From: a virus | Virus record (IMG/VR): IMGVR_UViG_3300037147_000039 | Span: 1 to 35,738 of that record | Length of the DNA: 35,738 nt | Direction: 5' to 3' (one strand) | Shown here: one piece after another, positions 10,504 through 30,201 of the stretch | Position numbering within the stretch: the first letter of the stretch is position 1 | How the letters are laid out: each line of letters begins with the position of its first letter | The notes under the pieces: generated by a model | Database searches by the model: none | What the model saw: only the letters and a program-made list of their open reading frames with translations | Told to the model about the DNA's origin: nothing | Program-made: the position numbers and the translations under genes

Positions 10504-10510
10504 TATTTAG
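10504..10510 (-). promoter_or_regulatory. CTAAATA late-type motif before the 9563-10498 gene
   Basis: CTAAATA includes the TAA stop of the RuvC gene (10507-10509) and ends 5 nt before the next ATG. No Shine-Dalgarno is present. Confidence 0.45.
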
Positions 10511-11331: not shown

Positions 11332-11736
11332 TTAATGAGATACCATCTTGTGAGCTTCGGATGGAGATTTCACAGTATGCTCATCTTGTGGCTCTGCGAA
11401 CCCCGGAGATTTGCAAATTGTGATATTACTGTTATATGAAGGTTTCAAATGATTGAGGGCGTGCGCTGCCGCCCTTCTACCTTTTGGATTTGAATGATCG
11501 TAATGAATGTAATGCCCGTAATTTGGGTGATAACCAAATCGAGCATAGCCATGTAGCTGCGCTTCTTTTACACGATCATCATAGCGTTGTGATTTAACCT
11601 TTTTGGACAGTTCCGATGGAAGATTGTATCCATGTTCATCGTCGCTTGGTACATAATGTGCTTTTCCAGTAGGACTCATCCAACCTTTGGTTGAGGTTTC
11701 TGGTTCTTCGACAATGAATTGCACAAATGTCAACAT
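11332..11736 (-). CDS. Putative capsid-targeted internal protein, 134 aa
   Basis: The N-terminus MLTFVQFIVEE is nearly identical to that of the 175-aa protein at 66-593 and matches the T4 capsid-targeting consensus ending in a protease-site Glu. The rest is His- and Tyr-rich (H-G-Y-A-R-F-G-Y-H-P-N-Y-G-H-Y-I-H-Y) and basic, recalling the His-rich modules at 22101-25174. I place the start at ATG 11736, 7 nt after CTAAATA, not at the in-frame TTG two codons earlier. Inference: a late-made protein packaged inside the head. Confidence 0.75.
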   Translation of the reverse strand: MLTFVQFIVEEPETSTKGWMSPTGKAHYVPSDDEHGYNLPSELSKKVKSQRYDDRVKEAQLHGYARFGYHPNYGHYIHYDHSNPKGRRAAAHALNHLKPSYNSNITICKSPGFAEPQDEHTVKSPSEAHKMVSH

Positions 11737-11743
11737 TATCAAA

Positions 11744-11750
11744 TATTTAG
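11744..11750 (-). promoter_or_regulatory. CTAAATA late-type motif before the 134-aa cargo gene
   Basis: CTAAATA ends 7 nt before the ATG at 11736. The gap to the nrdJ stop is short, so this gives the cargo gene its own late signal. Confidence 0.5.
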
Positions 11751-14127: not shown

Positions 14128-14138
14128 GACGTTCGTAT

Positions 14139-15032
14139 TTAGTGGGACGAAGTGTTTTGCGGTTTCTGCCACAACTCAATGAATTCAACGAATTCACGTT
14201 GAGACATACCGTATGCCGATGCAGAATTTTGAAATTTATTTTCAAGCATATCCCGCAATGCCAGTATGTCCATTTTGGACAATGTGACACTCTTGAAAAT
14301 GTAATCTTCAAACGCTTCACATGCCAGTGGGAAATGCGGCTTCACCAATTCATACATCGCATTGGCAAAGTCTCTGATTTCTCTTTGGGCGTGTGAGTCC
14401 ATCCGAAGATTTAACATATGAAACAAATTGTGGATGTCCATTTTGAAGAAGCATTCGGTGTAATTGGACACCGAGAGGGGAAGCCGTGCAAGCTCTCGAC
14501 TCAAGCCGGGATACTCTTCGCCTTCTTCCAACTCTAAACGACCGGGTGTGTCCCCCAGCAATGTCTTGTATGTTGAATATGCGTGTTCATAGAGCAGTAG
14601 GAAGAGATTGGTGATCTTCTTCTTGATGGGTTCACTGATCTCACCGGCCCGTCCTTGCTTGTTCGTCTTGGACTGCGGCTGCATGTAATTTTCAGCCGGA
14701 AGGTAAAATTCATCGCTCATCTCACTGTACCGTCCGCTGTACTCGTTTAGCGAAGCGGTTCGATGTCTCACGAGTTGACGCATTACAAAAATGGGCAACT
14801 TTATGTGAAAAACCACTTCTCCCATTTCGAGTGGGGAAGTGTGCTTGTGTCGCACTAGATAGCGAATCAGGTTCCGATCATCGGATACATTCTTCGTTCC
14901 GGTTCCGTAGGACACACGGGCGGCTCTTGCAATGGAGTGATCGTCTCCAAGATGGTCGATCAAGCCCACGAATCCGTATTCATGGATTTTCTTGTAGTTC
15001 GGGTTGTTACTTACTTCTGATTGTAGTGTCAT
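14139..15032 (-). CDS. thyX: Flavin-dependent thymidylate synthase ThyX
   Basis: The 297-aa product contains the ThyX signature R-H-R-T-A-S-L-N-E-Y-S-G-R-Y at residues 89-102, plus H-T-S-P-L-E (around 64-69) and a C-terminal substrate-binding segment N-L-R-M-D-S-H-A-Q-R-E-I-R. It makes dTMP from dUMP with methylenetetrahydrofolate and FAD. The ATG overlaps the TGA of the restriction-endonuclease-like gene (ATGA). Its TAA stop lies inside CTAAATACGAACG, a junction motif that recurs with one change (CTAGATACGAACG) at 17111-17123. Neighbouring nrdJ completes a nucleotide-supply unit. Confidence 0.95.
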   Translation of the reverse strand: MTLQSEVSNNPNYKKIHEYGFVGLIDHLGDDHSIARAARVSYGTGTKNVSDDRNLIRYLVRHKHTSPLEMGEVVFHIKLPIFVMRQLVRHRTASLNEYSGRYSEMSDEFYLPAENYMQPQSKTNKQGRAGEISEPIKKKITNLFLLLYEHAYSTYKTLLGDTPGRLELEEGEEYPGLSRELARLPLSVSNYTECFFKMDIHNLFHMLNLRMDSHAQREIRDFANAMYELVKPHFPLACEAFEDYIFKSVTLSKMDILALRDMLENKFQNSASAYGMSQREFVEFIELWQKPQNTSSH

Positions 15033-19341: not shown

Positions 19342-20544
19342 TCAGGAAGTAAATGCGTTCTGGTATCGGCTTTCGGTTGGGTAGACTACGATTGTTGATA
19401 ATCGTCCAGCGATTCCGCCTACACCAGCTTTCGGACTGTTGACGTTCAAACTTACCTTTCGAGGTAGCTTGCCGGGGTGTGGCAACATCAAACTTAGCAA
19501 GCGTGGGCCATGTTGTGCCCATATTTTATATGCAGCGTTTGATCTAGAAGTCGCCTTCTCTTTCCATTGTTCAAAAACATCATTCATCTTTCCTGGGGGA
19601 TGTAACTCTTTGGGAAAGTAAGTCTTTGAAATGTAAACGGTGAACTCTATAAGTGGCTTTGGTGGTTGTCTTGTGTTCGTCTTCCACTTACCGCTATCGT
19701 CTCTTGATTGATCCTCATCTTCGTGCATCTCTTCCGCTTTGTTGACAAGAGCTTTTCCGTTTTCTGACCGATGTTCGGAATACGTGAGATGTGGAAACTG
19801 TTTCTTGGCGTGTCTTATCAACTCTGCCGCATGTCCTTGACGGCGATGATCCGGGTGGGTGTAGGCCGTCGAAACATGACCTTTGCCTTTCTCCCGGCTG
19901 ACAACCTGAACGGCAGCAATGGGATTTCCATGCCCGTCGTGTTTGACGAACCGATGGTTGCCCCATTCTTTTTTGGAATGAACTGAAACGGTCGGTGTCA
20001 AATGCCTGACCTTCTCATCCGGGGAACCGTACTGTGCACCGTGCTTGTGAAGGATGCTGGCCAGTTCTTCGTTGCTGCCTTCGTCTTCATGCATCTCTTC
20101 CGCTTTGTTCGAGTGTTGGAAGATTTTATCGCCGAACATGCGTGGGTCCACGGGCGGGCCGTTCATCAGTTTGAACTTTTTGCGAATTGGAACTCCAGGT
20201 TCACCGAAGTGGGAGCCTGCGGGGATGTTGGCACCGGGAATTTGACCCGATCCCATATTGTTCGTCGGTGCGCCCACACTGCTCACGCCAGCGCCGCCTT
20301 CTTCCTCGATCTCATCTTCGTTGATGCGCCAGTCCTCACCCTTGTGACCGCAATCGACGCATGTGCGAGATTCGCCGTCACGTTCTGTGAGATTGGGTGA
20401 CCCGCAGTTTCCGCACAGGCCAATGGAACCATCTTTCACGCCTTCGTGATAAGCTTTCCGGCAGTCGGCGATGGTTAGAAACCGGCCTTCCATCAAAGAG
20501 GCTGATTCGTTGATTTTTTTTCTGAATTCATAGAAAGTTTTCAT
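19342..20544 (-). CDS. Putative capsid-targeted protein: zinc ribbon + GNAT acetyltransferase domain
   Basis: The 400-aa product begins MKTFYEF...INE, close to the T4 capsid-targeting sequence. A zinc ribbon follows (C44-G-N-C47, C62-V-D-C65), then a Gly/Pro-rich linker. Residues about 155-265 are a GNAT-like domain with the acetyl-CoA loop Y-T-H-P-D-H-R-R-Q-G-H-A (motif A, R/Q-x-x-G-x-A). The domain is bounded by two copies of N-K-A-E-E-M-H-E-D-E (from 146 and 268). An unassigned C-terminal domain contains R-L-L-S-L-M-L-P-H-P-G-K-L-P. Inference: a packaged enzyme that could acetylate host proteins early in infection. The start overlaps the GIY-YIG stop (ATGA). Confidence 0.75.
   Translation of the reverse strand: MKTFYEFRKKINESASLMEGRFLTIADCRKAYHEGVKDGSIGLCGNCGSPNLTERDGESRTCVDCGHKGEDWRINEDEIEEEGGAGVSSVGAPTNNMGSGQIPGANIPAGSHFGEPGVPIRKKFKLMNGPPVDPRMFGDKIFQHSNKAEEMHEDEGSNEELASILHKHGAQYGSPDEKVRHLTPTVSVHSKKEWGNHRFVKHDGHGNPIAAVQVVSREKGKGHVSTAYTHPDHRRQGHAAELIRHAKKQFPHLTYSEHRSENGKALVNKAEEMHEDEDQSRDDSGKWKTNTRQPPKPLIEFTVYISKTYFPKELHPPGKMNDVFEQWKEKATSRSNAAYKIWAQHGPRLLSLMLPHPGKLPRKVSLNVNSPKAGVGGIAGRLSTIVVYPTESRYQNAFTS
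19718..19743. repeat. Direct repeat copy 1 flanking the GNAT domain
   Basis: This 26-bp segment is identical to 20084-20109 except for one base. Both copies are in frame and code N-K-A-E-E-M-H-E-D-E, 122 codons apart. Confidence 0.85.
20084..20109. repeat. Direct repeat copy 2 flanking the GNAT domain
   Basis: Partner of 19718-19743 (25 of 26 bases identical). The pair brackets the acetyltransferase domain and would allow its loss or gain by homologous recombination. Confidence 0.85.
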
Positions 20545-21137
20545 ACGTATCTAACCTTGAACCCGTGGCAGTGTGCCCGTTTACCTTGAGCTACATGACA
20601 CATTCGACCCTGATCCAATTGATGTTCGTTACAAAAAGATTTCAAATTTGTACTGAACTCCGATGTTCCATCAGGGTATGTAATCTGATACGATCTCCGT
20701 TTCAGATTTGCCATTTTCAAACGCATTTGTGAACTGCGTTTTTTCCCTACGGTCATTTCAGATAGATGCTGTTTTGTTTCTGAAGTATGCCTCCCCCAAG
20801 ATTTTCCTTTACGAGCAAGTGAAATCTTTTTACGGGTTGTATCGGAAATTGTAAAGTCTCGTTCACCGCCTGTTGTTAAGTTATACTTCAATTCATGCTG
20901 GGCAATCCAAAAATTTTCTCTTTCATTGGCTTCGGTTCGAGACAAACAGGTATCCAACACGACCGGCCCAACAAATGAATTTATTCCATGCTTTTGAATA
21001 GCTGCATGGAAATATGAACCATCACCCCGACGAGCCTCACTCAGATGACTAAGATGCCGCTTCCGCAGATTATTGGTTTGCCCGATATACACTTTTCCTG
21101 ATATATGAGTGTACTTATAGATTAGGTATGATGTCAT
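20541..21137 (-). CDS. GIY-YIG homing endonuclease (Seg-like)
   Basis: The 198-aa product has the GIY-YIG nuclease domain: Y-L-I-Y-K-Y-T...G-K-V-Y-I-G-Q-T-N-N-L-R-K-R-H at residues 4-28, with catalytic Tyr and Arg, and a downstream E-A-N-E-R-E-N-F-W-I. Then come NUMOD3-type segments (T-R-K-K-I-S-L-A-R-K-G, R-H-T-S-E-T-K-Q-H-L-S) and a C-terminal helix-turn-helix. This is the layout of T4 Seg and I-TevI relatives. It sits between two phage genes with ATGA overlaps at both ends, so it inserted without disturbing the operon. Confidence 0.92.
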   Translation of the reverse strand: MTSYLIYKYTHISGKVYIGQTNNLRKRHLSHLSEARRGDGSYFHAAIQKHGINSFVGPVVLDTCLSRTEANERENFWIAQHELKYNLTTGGERDFTISDTTRKKISLARKGKSWGRHTSETKQHLSEMTVGKKRSSQMRLKMANLKRRSYQITYPDGTSEFSTNLKSFCNEHQLDQGRMCHVAQGKRAHCHGFKVRYV

Positions 21138-21706
21138 ATTTCAACAATATCGTCCCTACTGACAACAATAGTCCTACCAGTTGTGGCGACCTTTACTTGG
21201 TAAACGTCCACACCCAGTACTCGGCTGACAGGCTTCAAATCATGAGAAGCCACAACCAACGTGCCTTTCTGAAGGGAATTCCCCTTCGTATCCAGCATAT
21301 TGTTATTTAGTTTGTAGTTGCCCTGAGACAGGGTATCTTCTGGTAAATATTGTTCTTTCAAGTAAGTAGCCTCCACAGCATTGTTTTCTTTCAAGTAGGT
21401 TATGAACGACCGTTCCAAAACCAAAATTCCTTCTTCGTCGCCCATTTCTTCACGGATCAGAAAGAGCGCCGCCGCATAGGTTCCGATCTTGGTAATGCCA
21501 CCTGGGATCTTTTCAATGAGCCGCTTGATGTTGAATACCAGCCGATCAAAGAGTGTGTATGCCGCTTGATCTTCAGTATTCAAATTCGTCTTGATCTTTT
21601 GGCCGTGATTGTCAATGATACTCCGCTTAAATGCGGTAGTTTCATCCCAAGGCGTCACAAGGGTCTTTATGAATCTGTATACGATATAAGCATCCAATGG
21701 TCCCAT
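21134..21706 (-). CDS. Conserved T4-like phage protein, 190 aa
   Basis: Function unknown. From memory, proteins with a similar N-terminal half (Y-R-F-I-K-T-L-V-T-P-W...A-F-K...G-I/I-I-D) and A-A-Y-T-L-F-D-R-L-V-F-N-I-K-R-L are common in T4-like cyanophages. Then follow a helix with I-G-T-Y-A-A-A-L-F-L-I-R-E-E and a C-terminal beta-rich part with T-L-V-V-A-S-H-D and V-Y-Q-V-K-V. The ATG directly abuts the stop of the 129-aa gene (TAAATG). A TAAATA inside the gene near 21304 appears to be chance. Confidence 0.8.
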   Translation of the reverse strand: MGPLDAYIVYRFIKTLVTPWDETTAFKRSIIDNHGQKIKTNLNTEDQAAYTLFDRLVFNIKRLIEKIPGGITKIGTYAAALFLIREEMGDEEGILVLERSFITYLKENNAVEATYLKEQYLPEDTLSQGNYKLNNNMLDTKGNSLQKGTLVVASHDLKPVSRVLGVDVYQVKVATTGRTIVVSRDDIVEI

Positions 21707-22100: not shown

Positions 22101-23357
22101 TTATTTTTTCCGGCCTCTTGTTAAGGCTTCAGTGTACATGCGACCGTCTACAGCAATGTCAGAAGGTACAACTTCATCTTCGTCTTCACTGAATAAGTGA
22201 TCGGTCACACCCGCAAACGGAACTAACGCATGAGGCAGTAAATCTTGGTCGTCTTCGTCTTCCAAGACTTCAAAACTGGGCACAGCATCATGCTCCGTAT
22301 CTGTATCTAGCTGTGCTTCTAGGAAGGCTTTGAAAGCGAACATTTGGCCGGTAGGACCGTTCATTGGCTGGACACCAATAAACTCTCTTGACACATTTTC
22401 AGAATGAATACCAAATGGTTTACCCAACAAAATTTTCAAATGGGTTTCGCCGCCCAATTCACGTTCATAAAATCCTTTGTATCCAGGGTATTGCCCACCA
22501 GGATGTGGTCCAATCCATTTTACTGTTTTCCCTATGACCTTCTCCACGTCATGCTGATTGTCTACACATTGAATGTTGTGTCGTGTAATCAATATATGGG
22601 CGATTGCATCAGAAACTTCTCCATAATTTCCTGGAGTCCTTAATGAATTTACAACGGCATTGACATACTGTTGTTTGGCTTCGGGTGCGCCGGTTGATCC
22701 GCCACCAGTCCATTTAATACCAAACGGACTAGTTTTTCCAAATTTCACCGCATCCGGTTTTTTATCATAATTCGTATCTACTGCATACCAAATTGTATGA
22801 TTTGCAGGGAGATCGGAGGGTTTTTTGAAATCAACATGCCCACCAACATAGGCATATGATTTTGCTAATATATTGTAAAGTTGGTCATCAATATTTACAG
22901 GTGGTTCGTGCTCGGCGTGCTTCAACATACCAACCGGAATTTGGGTCCATTGATCTGGTTCTGGGTGTAAATCCGCAAAATCAGTTTCAGTGACCGCAGG
23001 AGAAGCGCTCGGCCCGTCCATCGCCATGGTGTCCACGAATGGTGATGTGCCTGCGTCCGGGAGTTCTCCGTCGCTTTCATTCATCTTCCGGTGGCCTAGA
23101 ATGTGTTTCTTGAGTGCCGTGCTGCCCTTTCCATTTTTCATGCCGTGGCCGTCAGCAAATGAATAACTGGCGTCTGTGCCATGACGCTTGCTGTCGCCAG
23201 GAGCGTTGATGGAATCAATATAGATGGACGATTTTTTATCCGGTGCGTGATAGGTATGGGTATTGTAGTGTTTGCCGTTATTGTGCAAATGGCTTTTGGT
23301 GTCAACCAAATTATAGTCATAACGACGAGCCATGCGATGCAGATTGTCCGCATCCAC
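22101..23357 (-). CDS. Second part of modular virion-type protein (possible -1 frameshift product)
   Basis: The frame codes 418 aa from GTG 23357 but stays open without a stop up to the A9 run at 23507, adding 50 residues of coding-like sequence. A His-rich module (G-K-H-Y-N-T-H-T-Y...L-K-K-H-I-L) lies at about 5-90. After A-V-T-E-T-D comes a larger domain with S-Y-A-Y-V-G-G-H-V-D-F, P-D-A-V-K-F-G-K, D-A-I-A-H-I-L-I-T-R-H and G-Y-K-G-F-Y-E-R. I have seen this in proteins of large phages, where it may be GNAT-like. No Shine-Dalgarno precedes the GTG. It may be made mainly as a fusion to the upstream protein. Confidence 0.7.
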   Translation of the reverse strand: MDADNLHRMARRYDYNLVDTKSHLHNNGKHYNTHTYHAPDKKSSIYIDSINAPGDSKRHGTDASYSFADGHGMKNGKGSTALKKHILGHRKMNESDGELPDAGTSPFVDTMAMDGPSASPAVTETDFADLHPEPDQWTQIPVGMLKHAEHEPPVNIDDQLYNILAKSYAYVGGHVDFKKPSDLPANHTIWYAVDTNYDKKPDAVKFGKTSPFGIKWTGGGSTGAPEAKQQYVNAVVNSLRTPGNYGEVSDAIAHILITRHNIQCVDNQHDVEKVIGKTVKWIGPHPGGQYPGYKGFYERELGGETHLKILLGKPFGIHSENVSREFIGVQPMNGPTGQMFAFKAFLEAQLDTDTEHDAVPSFEVLEDEDDQDLLPHALVPFAGVTDHLFSEDEDEVVPSDIAVDGRMYTEALTRGRKK

Positions 23358-23503: not shown

Positions 23504-25174
23504 TTACTTTTTTTTTAGGTCGGTGCGAACACCATTATTGTAATGAGCAATCGCTTCGCCCATTCCAAAAGAACCGCCTTTGGTAGTCCAAATGTGAACA
23601 GGTTGTTCCTTTGAATATTTTTTGGCAGCTTGATGTGCGGCTGTTTCTGACGTATGCATACTCAAACGTTTGCCACCAGCAGCGGTCATCACTTTGTGAG
23701 TGAACAACGGCGAGTTGGCTTCAGTAACTACCGACTCACCTAAGTGCTTTTTGAGTGCTTCGGGTGTGTCTAATATGTGGCCAGTCGTCAAAGCAGAAGT
23801 GCCAATTGTCTTTCCGTACAGAACACCAACTTTGGGTTTGGACGGATGGGTGAACACATCATGGTTGGCGTGTTTTCCAGTGTGCTTATATCCAGCACCA
23901 TTCAGAACGTCATGAAACGCCTTTACGGAAGAGTTCTCTGCTTCGGTAAAAGCCTCAACGAAAGGGGCGGTTTCTACGCCTCTTTCCAATCGAAGATCGA
24001 CTGTGTAGACGCTGGCATTCTTCTGGAATGTCACGACTAAATTAAGACCACCCGGAATTCGAGTGCCATCGTCCTTCGATATGAAGGAAGAAGGATCACC
24101 CATAGCGCCATAGCGCCCGCCGTATTGGGTTACCGGAACCGTCACCCGACCTTCAACGCCCGTAAAGATGATCGAACGCATGTCGAAGTGCAAGCCGACC
24201 ACGCTGAGCTTCTTCCAAGCTGTGTTCAGGACGTAGTAAGGATTGATGTATTGCTTGTTGCAAATGCTGTGAAGGAAGAAATTGAGCTTGTCCAGAACGT
24301 CGGCGTCGTCGGCGTACATTGCGCCTGTGTCAACGTCGTCAACGGCCTGCACCGACATTCCTGTCTCTGTATCTGGAACATTCAGTCCTACCCACTCTTG
24401 TAATTGTTGAAATGTCTTTCCCATTTGCTTCCTCTCGGTTGATTCATTTTGAGATTTCAGATGATTATCTAATTCTTCAGGAGAATGTATAAAAACTGTT
24501 TTCTTTTTATTCGCTTGAACTGCTACACTAGTTGCATTCTTGCCATGAGTGATGTTGACACCAATATGATTTTTTCCGCCCTTGTCTCTCAAATATGTAT
24601 GATGTTCGTGTCTATATTCATTATAATCGGGGTGGTTACTACCATTATGATGAAATCCGTGCTTATGCAAAACCCTATGATAGGGCCAATTTTTTTCACT
24701 GGTGGGTAATGCTTCGGTCGAACTGGATACGGCTTCGTCCATAATCTCTCCCTTTGGTTCGTACTGTGCAACGGCCAGTTTAGGATCGGCTGTGAAGAAA
24801 TTGTGTTTCCGCATCACCGTCTTGGCTACAATCGTCACGTCTTGTCCGTTGTGTTTGAGCACGAACGGAACGTTTACATCGGTCTGTGAGTCAGTTAGAA
24901 CGGCTTCCCATTCATGTTGAGGAATGTGAGCCAATTTATCACCGAATTTTTTGAACGCCGCTACGAAGAGCGACGCCAATTCACAAATCGTTATCTGTCG
25001 TCCGTTCCGAGCTTCATTCACACGGTCCAAAAAATGCGTTGTAAACGCCACACCAATTTTCAATTTTGCCCATATCTTGTCCAGCAAAACCTTGAGGTTT
25101 CGTAAGTCGCCATCCGTCACCATGTGACTGGAATCACAATTGAAAGTTTCGATAAGCTGGAAATACGTATGCAT
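23504..25174 (-). CDS. Modular, putative capsid-targeted polyprotein-like protein, 556 aa
   Basis: The start is ATG 25174 (M-H-T-Y-F-Q-L-I-E), after a TATAAATA late promoter; the frame upstream runs into a terminator. Modules in order: F-T-T-H-F-L-D-R-V-N...T-V-M-R-K-H-N-F-F (about 35-140); a His-rich module G-F-H-H-N-G...E-L-D-N-H-L-K; an internal M-G-K-T-F-Q-Q-L-Q-E; a domain of about 150 aa; a second His-rich module G-Y-K-H-T-G...L-K-K-H-L-G; and a short module ending in K-K-K. Modules are joined by S-T-E, F-T-E-A and V-T-E-A linkers that resemble prohead protease sites. The gene ends A-AAA-AAG-TAA, a slippery stop. Inference: capsid-internal cargo cut into pieces. Confidence 0.75.
   Translation of the reverse strand: MHTYFQLIETFNCDSSHMVTDGDLRNLKVLLDKIWAKLKIGVAFTTHFLDRVNEARNGRQITICELASLFVAAFKKFGDKLAHIPQHEWEAVLTDSQTDVNVPFVLKHNGQDVTIVAKTVMRKHNFFTADPKLAVAQYEPKGEIMDEAVSSSTEALPTSEKNWPYHRVLHKHGFHHNGSNHPDYNEYRHEHHTYLRDKGGKNHIGVNITHGKNATSVAVQANKKKTVFIHSPEELDNHLKSQNESTERKQMGKTFQQLQEWVGLNVPDTETGMSVQAVDDVDTGAMYADDADVLDKLNFFLHSICNKQYINPYYVLNTAWKKLSVVGLHFDMRSIIFTGVEGRVTVPVTQYGGRYGAMGDPSSFISKDDGTRIPGGLNLVVTFQKNASVYTVDLRLERGVETAPFVEAFTEAENSSVKAFHDVLNGAGYKHTGKHANHDVFTHPSKPKVGVLYGKTIGTSALTTGHILDTPEALKKHLGESVVTEANSPLFTHKVMTAAGGKRLSMHTSETAAHQAAKKYSKEQPVHIWTTKGGSFGMGEAIAHYNNGVRTDLKKK
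23507..23516 (-). other. A AAA AAG slippery run at the stop codon (candidate -1 frameshift site)
   Basis: On the minus strand the 556-aa gene ends CTA AAA AAA AAG TAA. The zero-frame heptamer A-AAA-AAG is the dnaX-type bacterial slippery sequence, directly before the stop. A -1 slip enters GTA ACT GAG, a frame open through to the stop at 22101. A short hairpin CCAGA-AAG-TCTGG (23464-23476) lies downstream. A single-base error in the nine-A run would give the same picture. Confidence 0.5.
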
Positions 25175-25190: not shown

Positions 25191-25198
25191 TATTTATA
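25191..25198 (-). promoter_or_regulatory. TATAAATA late promoter, exact T4 core
   Basis: TATAAATA on the minus strand is identical to the T4 late promoter core. It lies 16 nt before the ATG at 25174 and directly after the T-tract of a terminator. Confidence 0.7.
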
Positions 25199-28679: not shown

Positions 28680-28701
28680 TATTTAGATTTTTCCTATTTA
28701 G
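28680..28701 (-). promoter_or_regulatory. Two CTAAATA late-type motifs before the surface-protein gene
   Basis: CTAAATA at 28680-28686 and again at 28695-28701 on the minus strand, 22 and 37 nt before the ATG. AAGGAG lies at 28668-28673. Confidence 0.65.
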
Positions 28702-28756: not shown

Positions 28757-28981
28757 TTAATATGGCATGCGTTGTCTGAAAGTTTTGTACTCAGGATTGA
28801 TGATGACTTCCTCTTTCTCGCCCGAAAGTTCTTCTTCCGGCTCTTCGTCGGTAGGAACGTCCATTGCAGACAAAGCATCTTCTTCGATCTCAGCTTCATG
28901 AACGGAATCCAAAACAGCCGATTCGAGTATCTTTTGAGACGCCTTTAACAGAGATAATGGTAGATTCTTGATCTCACTCAT
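28757..28981 (-). CDS. Small acidic protein, 74 aa
   Basis: Not recognised by sequence. An N-terminal helix (L-P-L-S-L-L-K-A-S-Q-K-I-L-E-S-A-V) is followed by an acidic stretch (D-E-E-P-E-E-E-L-S-G-E-K-E-E-V). The composition and size recall small acidic prohead core proteins such as T4 gp67, but this is only a resemblance. It has no Shine-Dalgarno; CTAAATA ends 7 nt before the ATG. Confidence 0.6.
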   Translation of the reverse strand: MSEIKNLPLSLLKASQKILESAVLDSVHEAEIEEDALSAMDVPTDEEPEEELSGEKEEVIINPEYKTFRQRMPY

Positions 28982-28988
28982 AGTAAAG

Positions 28989-28995
28989 TATTTAG
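28989..28995 (-). promoter_or_regulatory. CTAAATA late-type motif before the small acidic gene
   Basis: CTAAATA starts one base after the TAG of the 2H phosphoesterase gene and ends 7 nt before the next ATG. Confidence 0.45.
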
Positions 28996-29799
28996 CTATG
29001 CAGCAAGTTGCTTGTAGAATGCCTTTGGAAACCCATGTGCAATCGCCAGGAGTTCTCGGATGGGAAGATCAACTTGATAGGTCTCTAACATGAAGCGTGG
29101 ATCACGGCTTTGACAACGTAAATGCTCATCAAGAATGTAGTTGTCGTTCGAGGAAATTACAGGTTTGGTCAAAATATTGGTCGGAATAGTGACTTCTATA
29201 CCTTGCCGTTCGATCCACGTAACGAATTCCGATATATCTGTGTCCCGAATTTGTGGAATCTCAATTGGAGTGACATTGAGGACATCCGGCCCACCAAGTG
29301 TCATGTCTTCCTTTAGATGATTAATCGCTGCCCAGCCGTCAATCATGGGACGAATCAATTCTTCACCCAAAATGATCTGTACCGGTAAAGGCTTGATTTC
29401 TGAATAGTCGAAATCTTCAGGGATGCTGTACGAAAGACTCAAATGAGGTTGATAAGTAGGCCAGCGGCTTTGTGCGCCCATTGCCTTTGCCTGTTCCCAT
29501 TGCCGGGATAGAACCTCGCTTCGGAACCGCAAAACCAGAGCTTCTCCCAAAATGGATATAGAATAGGTTGCTGGATTGATCCAAATCGATTTGGGATCAG
29601 GTGTATAGGTAGGAACAGCCGTCTCTGAACAAACAACCGTCGCATGAAGTTCGGCAGGCGAAATCGGATTGGGAATCTGATTCTCTTGAATCCATTGGTT
29701 TAGGATTTCAAGACTATGAAGGCTAGGCTTTCTAAAGGAATAGAGTCCGTGATCGGTCGATATGTCTTCGTTTACAAACTGAAGATATGTTTTTGACAT
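28996..29799 (-). CDS. 2H phosphoesterase resembling anti-CBASS Acb1, with capsid-targeting-like N-terminus
   Basis: The 267-aa product has two H-x-T/S motifs: H52-A-T54 (E-L-H-A-T-V-V) and H119-L-S121 (Q-P-H-L-S-L-S-Y), the catalytic pair of 2H phosphoesterases. N-Q-I-P-N-P...E-L-H-A-T recalls T4 Acb1, whose catalytic His residues I remember as 44 and 113; the spacing here is 67 against 69. Acb1 cleaves cyclic nucleotide signals of CBASS defence. The start MSKTYLQFVNE resembles the T4 capsid-targeting sequence, so the enzyme may be injected with the DNA. A C-terminal domain of about 100 aa is unknown. Other 2H roles (RNA ligase-like, cyclic phosphate cleavage) remain possible. Confidence 0.75.
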   Translation of the reverse strand: MSKTYLQFVNEDISTDHGLYSFRKPSLHSLEILNQWIQENQIPNPISPAELHATVVCSETAVPTYTPDPKSIWINPATYSISILGEALVLRFRSEVLSRQWEQAKAMGAQSRWPTYQPHLSLSYSIPEDFDYSEIKPLPVQIILGEELIRPMIDGWAAINHLKEDMTLGGPDVLNVTPIEIPQIRDTDISEFVTWIERQGIEVTIPTNILTKPVISSNDNYILDEHLRCQSRDPRFMLETYQVDLPIRELLAIAHGFPKAFYKQLAA

Positions 29800-29811
29800 C
29801 GATGCCCTAAC

Positions 29812-30201
29812 TTATTTAGGGCAATCCTTTCCTATTAATGACTTTTCCAGAAAACCCTTCCACTCTGGCAAGCTTCGATATTCAATTTTGCAATTGCGTT
29901 CTTTGGCGTCCTCTATTCCCAAGAGCATTCCCGGCGTGACTCCCAAGTCATTGTAGACAGCCGTTAGGTCGCAAACCTCACGAAAGGTGAATCCGGCTCT
30001 AATGCCCAACTCCCTTTCTTCCTTGATCGTGTCGTCTAGGACATCCGGCAGCGTGTAGAGCGCATGGCTGGCAAACGGAGCTTCGTCCCGGAGCAAACAA
30101 TCACGAATTGCCGCCCGGAGATACTTCATATTGATTTCCAGGTTGCTGTAATCGATGCCTTTGTAAGGACTTTCAATGATGACGATGGGAACGTATCTCA
30201 C
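29812..30201 (-). CDS. Nucleoside 2-deoxyribosyltransferase-like protein (DUF7768-type)
   Basis: The 129-aa product has I-I-E-S-P-Y-K-G, then N-M-K-Y-L-R-A-A-I-R-D-C-L-L-R-D-E-A-P-F-A-S-H-A-L-Y-T, then V-L-D-D...E-R-E-L-G-I and Y-N-D-L-G-V-T-P-G-M. From memory this pattern is a DUF7768-type domain related to nucleoside deoxyribosyltransferases (Rossmann-like fold). A role in nucleotide or base salvage, or in nucleotide-signal metabolism, is plausible. The start is GTG 30201, overlapping the TGA of the 61-aa gene by 4 nt. Confidence 0.75.
   Translation of the reverse strand: MRYVPIVIIESPYKGIDYSNLEINMKYLRAAIRDCLLRDEAPFASHALYTLPDVLDDTIKEERELGIRAGFTFREVCDLTAVYNDLGVTPGMLLGIEDAKERNCKIEYRSLPEWKGFLEKSLIGKDCPK
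29813..29819 (-). promoter_or_regulatory. CTAAATA late-type motif before the 2H phosphoesterase gene
   Basis: CTAAATA contains the last codons and overlaps the TAA stop of the 129-aa gene; it ends 13 nt before the ATG at 29799. Confidence 0.5.

Follow-up and report, generated by a model that had tools for sequence, protein, structure and literature searches.

The gene at 28996–29799 on the minus strand of this virus record raises the question of where an enzyme resembling Acb1 is used: in the infected cell that makes it or in the next host, into which it would be carried with the phage DNA. CBASS can respond before phage-made inhibitors exist; if the head brought in a nuclease, the signal would be removed as early as the first minute, and the late control of an anti-CBASS gene would be explained. 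The record, referred to here as the window, is a fragment of 35,738 bases that carries T4-like replication genes, nearly all of them on the minus strand, and its gp41-type helicase is ~53% identical to the counterparts in marine T4-like cyanophages. The gene is an open reading frame of 267 aa with its ATG at 29799 and its stop at 28996, and it and the other window features located below lie on the minus strand. Searches of IMG/VR with the Acb1-like protein and with the neighboring UvsX retrieved no near relative, and for the whole protein they turned up no close homologue. The reading that we favor, by a modest degree, is that the gene encodes an Acb1-type 2H phosphoesterase that is made late, packed into the head by means of its leader, injected, and able to cleave CBASS signals.

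Residues 18–157 (29329–29748) constitute an Acb1, or 2H phosphoesterase, domain, as identified by a profile match and an AlphaFold2 model. The Pfam family Acb1 (PF23474) matches these residues with an E value of 4.1e-24 and a score of 85.4 bits (the curated cutoff is 27), the match in a genome-level search covers 29329–29748 with 86.9 bits, and phmmer aligns the protein to the Acb1 of FBB1 (PDB 7t26) with an E value of 2.4e-11. At a permissive threshold, tblastn finds a related stretch in 1554 phage records, mostly relatives of T4 57B. PADLOC gave no match for the protein, and its match in NCBIfam was at the level of chance. In the family tree, its branch is long, has no supported sister, and falls, weakly, outside the T4 57B clade. 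The AlphaFold2 model, which was built with 44 IMG/VR homologues, has pLDDT values above 90 across approximately residues 21–150 and displays the two-lobed 2H phosphoesterase fold of the FBB1 crystal structure 7t26, with a Z score of 19.1 and an rmsd of 1.5 Å over 132 residues (33% identity); the Z score with the enzyme of a Burkholderia phage is 16. A preliminary description of the gene, made from its letters, had called the product Acb1-like, and this comparison of the predicted structure with Acb1 bears it out. Because the sequence, the catalytic residues described below, and the predicted fold agree, the Acb1-like identity is well supported, and the protein is very probably an enzyme of the Acb1 family.

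The protein starts with MSKTYLQFVNE (residues 1–11, 29767–29799), which the preliminary description had likened to a capsid-targeting sequence and regarded as a difference from T4 Acb1. Both points hold: the start matches the pattern of the leaders of the T4 internal proteins IPI, IPII, and IPIII, and T4 57B is without the full leader, T4 Acb1 starting with MEFKDF and IPI with MKTFKEF. Even foreign proteins enter the head when they carry the N-terminal capsid-targeting sequence of the T4 internal proteins (PMC9958956, PMC3012670), and IPI–III are anti-defense proteins that are injected with the DNA and block host enzymes (PMC12373910). The leader pattern, M-x(1–2)-T-[FY]-x-[EQ]-F, was searched for as DNA. 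The M-x-T spacing is found at three gene starts in the window (593, 11736, and 20544), where 0.03 are expected, and the spacing with one extra residue is found once, at the start of the Acb1-like gene, where again 0.03 are expected; the two spacings together give four gene starts in 35.7 kb against an expectation of ~0.06. In the T4 record, M-x-T-[FY]-x-[EQ]-F occurs four times, in IPI, IPII, IPIII, and one small unknown ORF, and a reversed control pattern is absent from all 15 phage records searched. This small ORF, located beside the primase in the T4 record (OZ209023.1, 18952–19116), starts with MKTFKEF like IPI and possibly, from this start, encodes a further packaged protein.

The other three strict-leader genes of the window are without homology to Acb1. 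They start with MLTFSQFIAE (66–593, with a DUF2786 domain), MLTFVQFIVE (11332–11736, with CTAAATA at 11744–11750), and MKTFYEFRKKINE (19342–20544, with a GNAT acetyltransferase domain), and a weaker leader-like start, MHTYFQLIE, is present in the gene at 23504–25174 if translation begins at the ATG at 25174, with TATAAATA at 25191–25198. The 400-aa product of 19342–20544 has a zinc-ribbon-like segment (a weak Lar-like match) in addition to the GNAT domain, a domain that injected polyvalent proteins are known to contain as well (PMC5512222), and is a candidate injected effector. Directly upstream of this gene is a GIY-YIG-like ORF, MTSYLIYKYTHISGKVYIGQTN (20541–21137), which may represent the insertion of a homing endonuclease. 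In each of the four genes with the strict leader, [IV]-x-E follows soon after the pattern, and in T4 IPII and IPIII the leader is removed by a cut after IAE. By analogy, the leader of the Acb1-like protein is probably cleaved after VNE (residues 9–11) by the prohead protease; V is at P3, where T4 favors I or L, and [ILV]xE is found at a comparable place in 11 of the 46 window genes. The 35.7-kb fragment contains no head genes and no prohead protease of the gp21 type.

The motif CTAAATA, which in Aeromonas phage Aeh1 is the putative late promoter and starts at –12 (PMC1524935), is located at 29813–29819, 14 bp before the ATG, and predicts a +1 position at 29807. It occurs 10 times on the coding strand of the window and not once on the other, where 2.15 are expected on both, and none of 100 shuffled sequences reached ten. 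The sites are at 2157–2163, 2674–2680, 10504–10510, 11744–11750, 14136–14142, 21304–21310, 28680–28686, 28695–28701, 28989–28995, and 29813–29819. Eight of the 10 lie 9–45 bp before a start codon, with a binomial p of ~1e-9 that serves as a guide, the start codons in the count having been partly hand-picked; the motif was spotted after the sequence had been inspected and is the commonest heptamer before starts in the window. The genes that it precedes include that of a 1082-aa fibre-like protein as well as the Acb1-like gene, and at several of them the predicted RNA start is 0–2 bases from the ATG, giving nearly leaderless messages. The form ATAAATA is found upstream of the endolysin and of the gene at 23504–25174. 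Dense TAA stops were considered as a source of CTAAATA and rejected: the other strand has none, and GTAAATA and TTAAATA are rare. The distribution of the motif suggests that it is probably the late promoter of this phage.

A perfect 8-bp hairpin, TGCCCTAA-ATAAG-TTAGGGCA (29803–29823), is formed around the promoter motif of the Acb1-like gene and a Shine-Dalgarno-like AGGG. The AGGG is paired in the hairpin, and among 45 gene starts only one has a more stable local fold. A late transcript that started at 29807, 12 bases after the C of the motif, is predicted to lose the 5' arm, an arrangement that fits a ribosome site that would be buried in read-through RNA and freed in late RNA. The nearest precedent for a hairpin combined with a late promoter is reportedly mobE of Aeh1, studied by Gibb and Edgell. 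Inhibitory structures of a like kind are present in T4 genes e, soc, 49, and I-TevI, and those of gene e and I-TevI keep upstream read-through RNA silent (PMC3014915). The late promoter motif and the hairpin therefore fit a protein that is wanted late, at head assembly. Packaging of the Acb1-like protein in the head is supported because the leader, the late promoter motif, and the late-only translation hairpin point the same way, and from these features it appears quite likely.

The alternative that survives best is that the protein is an ordinary Acb1 that is used, unpackaged, in the infected cell, and that the apparent leader is a short N-terminal helix of a kind common before the first strand. 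A looser start, [FY]-x-[EDQ]-[FYL], is indeed commoner in standalone Acb1s than in the background, being found near the start of 12 of 62 non-redundant standalone Acb1s, including the T4-type MMEFKDFSTGLYV, compared with 19 of 465 background ORFs (4%); the Fisher p of 6e-5 is a lead only, the motif having been chosen after the sequences were viewed. The strict leader, moreover, was found in none of the 49 Acb1 homologues of a first set. However, it recurs in three (or four) further genes of the window, all of them lacking an Acb1 domain, the chain in the FBB1 crystal begins after the leader region, and a late promoter motif with a late-only hairpin is ill suited to a protein that is needed early. 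Unpackaged use thus appears somewhat unlikely. Two further sequences, LPCS28 (MKTFAQLVES) and contig G012 (MKLFSEFLVEE), resemble leader-bearing Acb1s but are not counted among them; in the parts of these genomes that were read, no other convincing gene start carries the pattern.

As proposed in the preliminary description, H52-A-T54 (29638–29646) and H119-L-S121 (29437–29445) form the 2H catalytic pair, and the 67-residue spacing of the histidines is close to the spacing of 69 in T4 Acb1. The N-Q-I-P-N-P sequence before the first motif, which had also been said to recall T4, comprises residues 40–45, and its PNP is common to T4 57B. The catalytic residues of T4 Acb1 are H44, T46, H113, and T115 (Hobbs et al. 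2022, PMC9117128), and all four positions are kept here as HxT and HxS. H52, T54, Y116, P118, and H119 are invariant across 45 aligned homologues, and position 121 is T in 40 of them and S in the other five. In T4 Acb1, the substrate is contacted by aromatic stacking of Y12, W74, F107, and W147, and E141 reads the adenine (PMC9117128). The counterparts of Y12, F107, and W147 are the aromatic residues Y20, W113, and W156, the lid tryptophan. The W74 position is occupied by L84 and, because it varies among the 45 homologues (W in 11, F in 19, and L in 10), it is not strictly defining for Acb1. The position of E141, which is E in 28 of the 45, is occupied by R150, and this arginine is unique among them; E141 is a specificity residue and not a family-defining one. 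With R150 at the adenine-contact position an altered base preference is predicted, and the enzyme possibly differs from T4 Acb1 in this respect. The protein thus resembles the Acb1 of T4 (57B) and of FBB1 (7t26/7t27) in its 2H fold, its HxT/Hx(T/S) tetrad, and a nearly equal spacing, and T4 Acb1 in the PNP before the first motif and in the aromatic stacking positions kept at three sites.

The change in the adenine-reading residue also bears on a second alternative, that the protein is a 2H phosphoesterase of the LigT/Usb1-like type that heals or cuts RNA ends, whether packaged or not. These enzymes are of the same superfamily, the PHROG family to which the protein is assigned is labeled RNA ligase, and Iyer et al. 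2017 (PMC5512222) weighed an RNase or oligoadenylate-degrading role for such 2H domains. The predicted structure, however, is far closer to Acb1 (Z 19, 33% identity) than to LigT-type RNA-end enzymes (Z ~11, 12% identity), W156, Y20, and the aromatic residue at 113 are kept, and T4 57B, which is Acb1, belongs to the same PHROG family. A role at RNA ends is consequently improbable.

The C-terminal extension, put at about 100 aa in the preliminary description, comprises ~107 residues (161–267) and, because T4 57B has 152 aa in the T4 record and ends at the lid, it is a true difference from the T4 protein. Its recognizable part, residues ~175–267 (28999–29277), is by alignment a shortened ParB-like domain. 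In Aeromonas phage 65/avDM6, a free-standing protein is 44% identical over 61 residues to the stretch at residues ~203–265, and the domain also aligns with domains that are repeated in L096 and with L062, a locus in which one long ORF holds both an Acb1 domain and a full ParB-like one. The ParB-like label derives from these alignments to phage 65, L096, and L062 and from the ParB-like (ParBc_2) profile matches of these relatives, which carry DGHH; the profile match is weak in avDM6 and exceeds the Pfam cutoff in L096. In the DGHHR-type site, D-x-H-x-R is kept as DEHLR and the G and second H are changed, and the 26–31 residues that carry the TQxE motif are missing. An AlphaFold2 model of the C-terminal piece alone is weak (pLDDT 69) and has no match in the PDB under an E value of 0.6. 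That the protein is packaged in the head for a structural or DNA-binding role through this domain, with the 2H domain weakly active or acting on another nucleotide, would accord with the R150 and L84 substitutions, the attached domain itself, and the long branch with no supported sister, but is very improbable with HxT and HxS fully kept and the ParB-like domain reduced to a shortened, altered part.

In the favored reading, that of a head-carried nuclease for CBASS signals, the gene would be switched on late in infection, the leader would gather the product into the prohead core, and the prohead protease would trim the leader after VNE. The trimmed enzyme would be kept in the head, enter the next host with the DNA, and cleave cyclic di- or trinucleotide CBASS signals before any phage gene is transcribed. 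That the enzyme is injected and acts against host nucleotide signals is, from the sequence, slightly favored. Like T4 IPI, IPII, and IPIII, the protein has the M-x-T-[FY]-x-[EQ]-F type of leader, late expression signals, and a proposed anti-defense role; unlike these small inhibitors of restriction enzymes, its cargo is an enzyme directed at a signal molecule. If the reading is correct, the T4-type internal proteins extend from restriction-enzyme inhibitors to enzymes that act on signal molecules. Unlike T4 57B, to which ipI is the adjoining gene in T4, the protein has a full capsid-targeting leader, a ParB-like C-terminal domain, R150 for E141, and L84 for W74, and its gene has its own late promoter motif with a hairpin, whereas TATAAATA is not directly before T4 57B.

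The suggestion in the preliminary description that delivery of such a hydrolase ahead of transcription had never been described was too strong. Degradation of nucleotide signals was put forward by Iyer et al. 2017 (PMC5512222) as a possible role of the 2H domains in polyvalent proteins packaged in the capsid. According to a 2026 review (PMC13282480), the CBASS/Thoeris sponge Tad1 is injected by phiKZ. In that account Tad1, too, enters with the phage and antagonizes CBASS signals, but it is a sponge and not a nuclease, and it belongs to a jumbo phage. DdrB-like ParB domains, such as those of phage P1, occur with 2H domains among the polyvalent proteins, for which capsid packing and injection are predicted (PMC5512222). 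The Acb1 and ParB-like domains are here present in one chain with a late promoter motif, the combination by which polyvalent proteins are recognized; unlike those proteins, this one is short, has two domains only, and carries a T4-type leader. In the literature searched, no Acb1 nuclease was described as carrying a head-packaging leader of the T4 type, and the prediction-based question of 2017 about injected signal degradation had no answer for Acb1. What appears to be new at this locus is the joining of an enzyme family and a delivery tag, both known, with a strategy that had been predicted.

In 27 of 80 sampled IMG/VR homologues of Acb1, the domain is located behind at least 400 residues of ORF (loci L025–L091). 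The one that was checked, L033, has Phage_portal_3 together with Acb1, and the Pam3 portal (PDB 8hds) has an Acb1 domain at its C terminus, by a weak match. Such portal-fused domains would be borne by the virion like the protein described here, but are fixed to the portal and have no leader; a virion-fixed, portal-borne Acb1 domain seems to have been little discussed. A broader proposal, that head packaging is general in Acb1s of the T4 lineage and that their F-x-[ED]-F starts are working or decayed capsid-targeting leaders, is doubtful. If leaders were general and the portal fusions were counted, hydrolysis of CBASS signals would often be delivered by the virion, before infection raises the alarm.

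Directly 3' of the Acb1-like gene is a gene for a 74-aa acidic protein (28757–28981) that has its own CTAAATA; the product has no family match and recalls prohead core proteins in its size and charge. Segments rich in histidine, HGFHHNGSNHPDYNEYRHEHH among them, are shared by the large proteins encoded at 597–2150, 22101–23357, and 23504–25174; the proteins that share them are otherwise unrelated, and their mutual similarity is weak.
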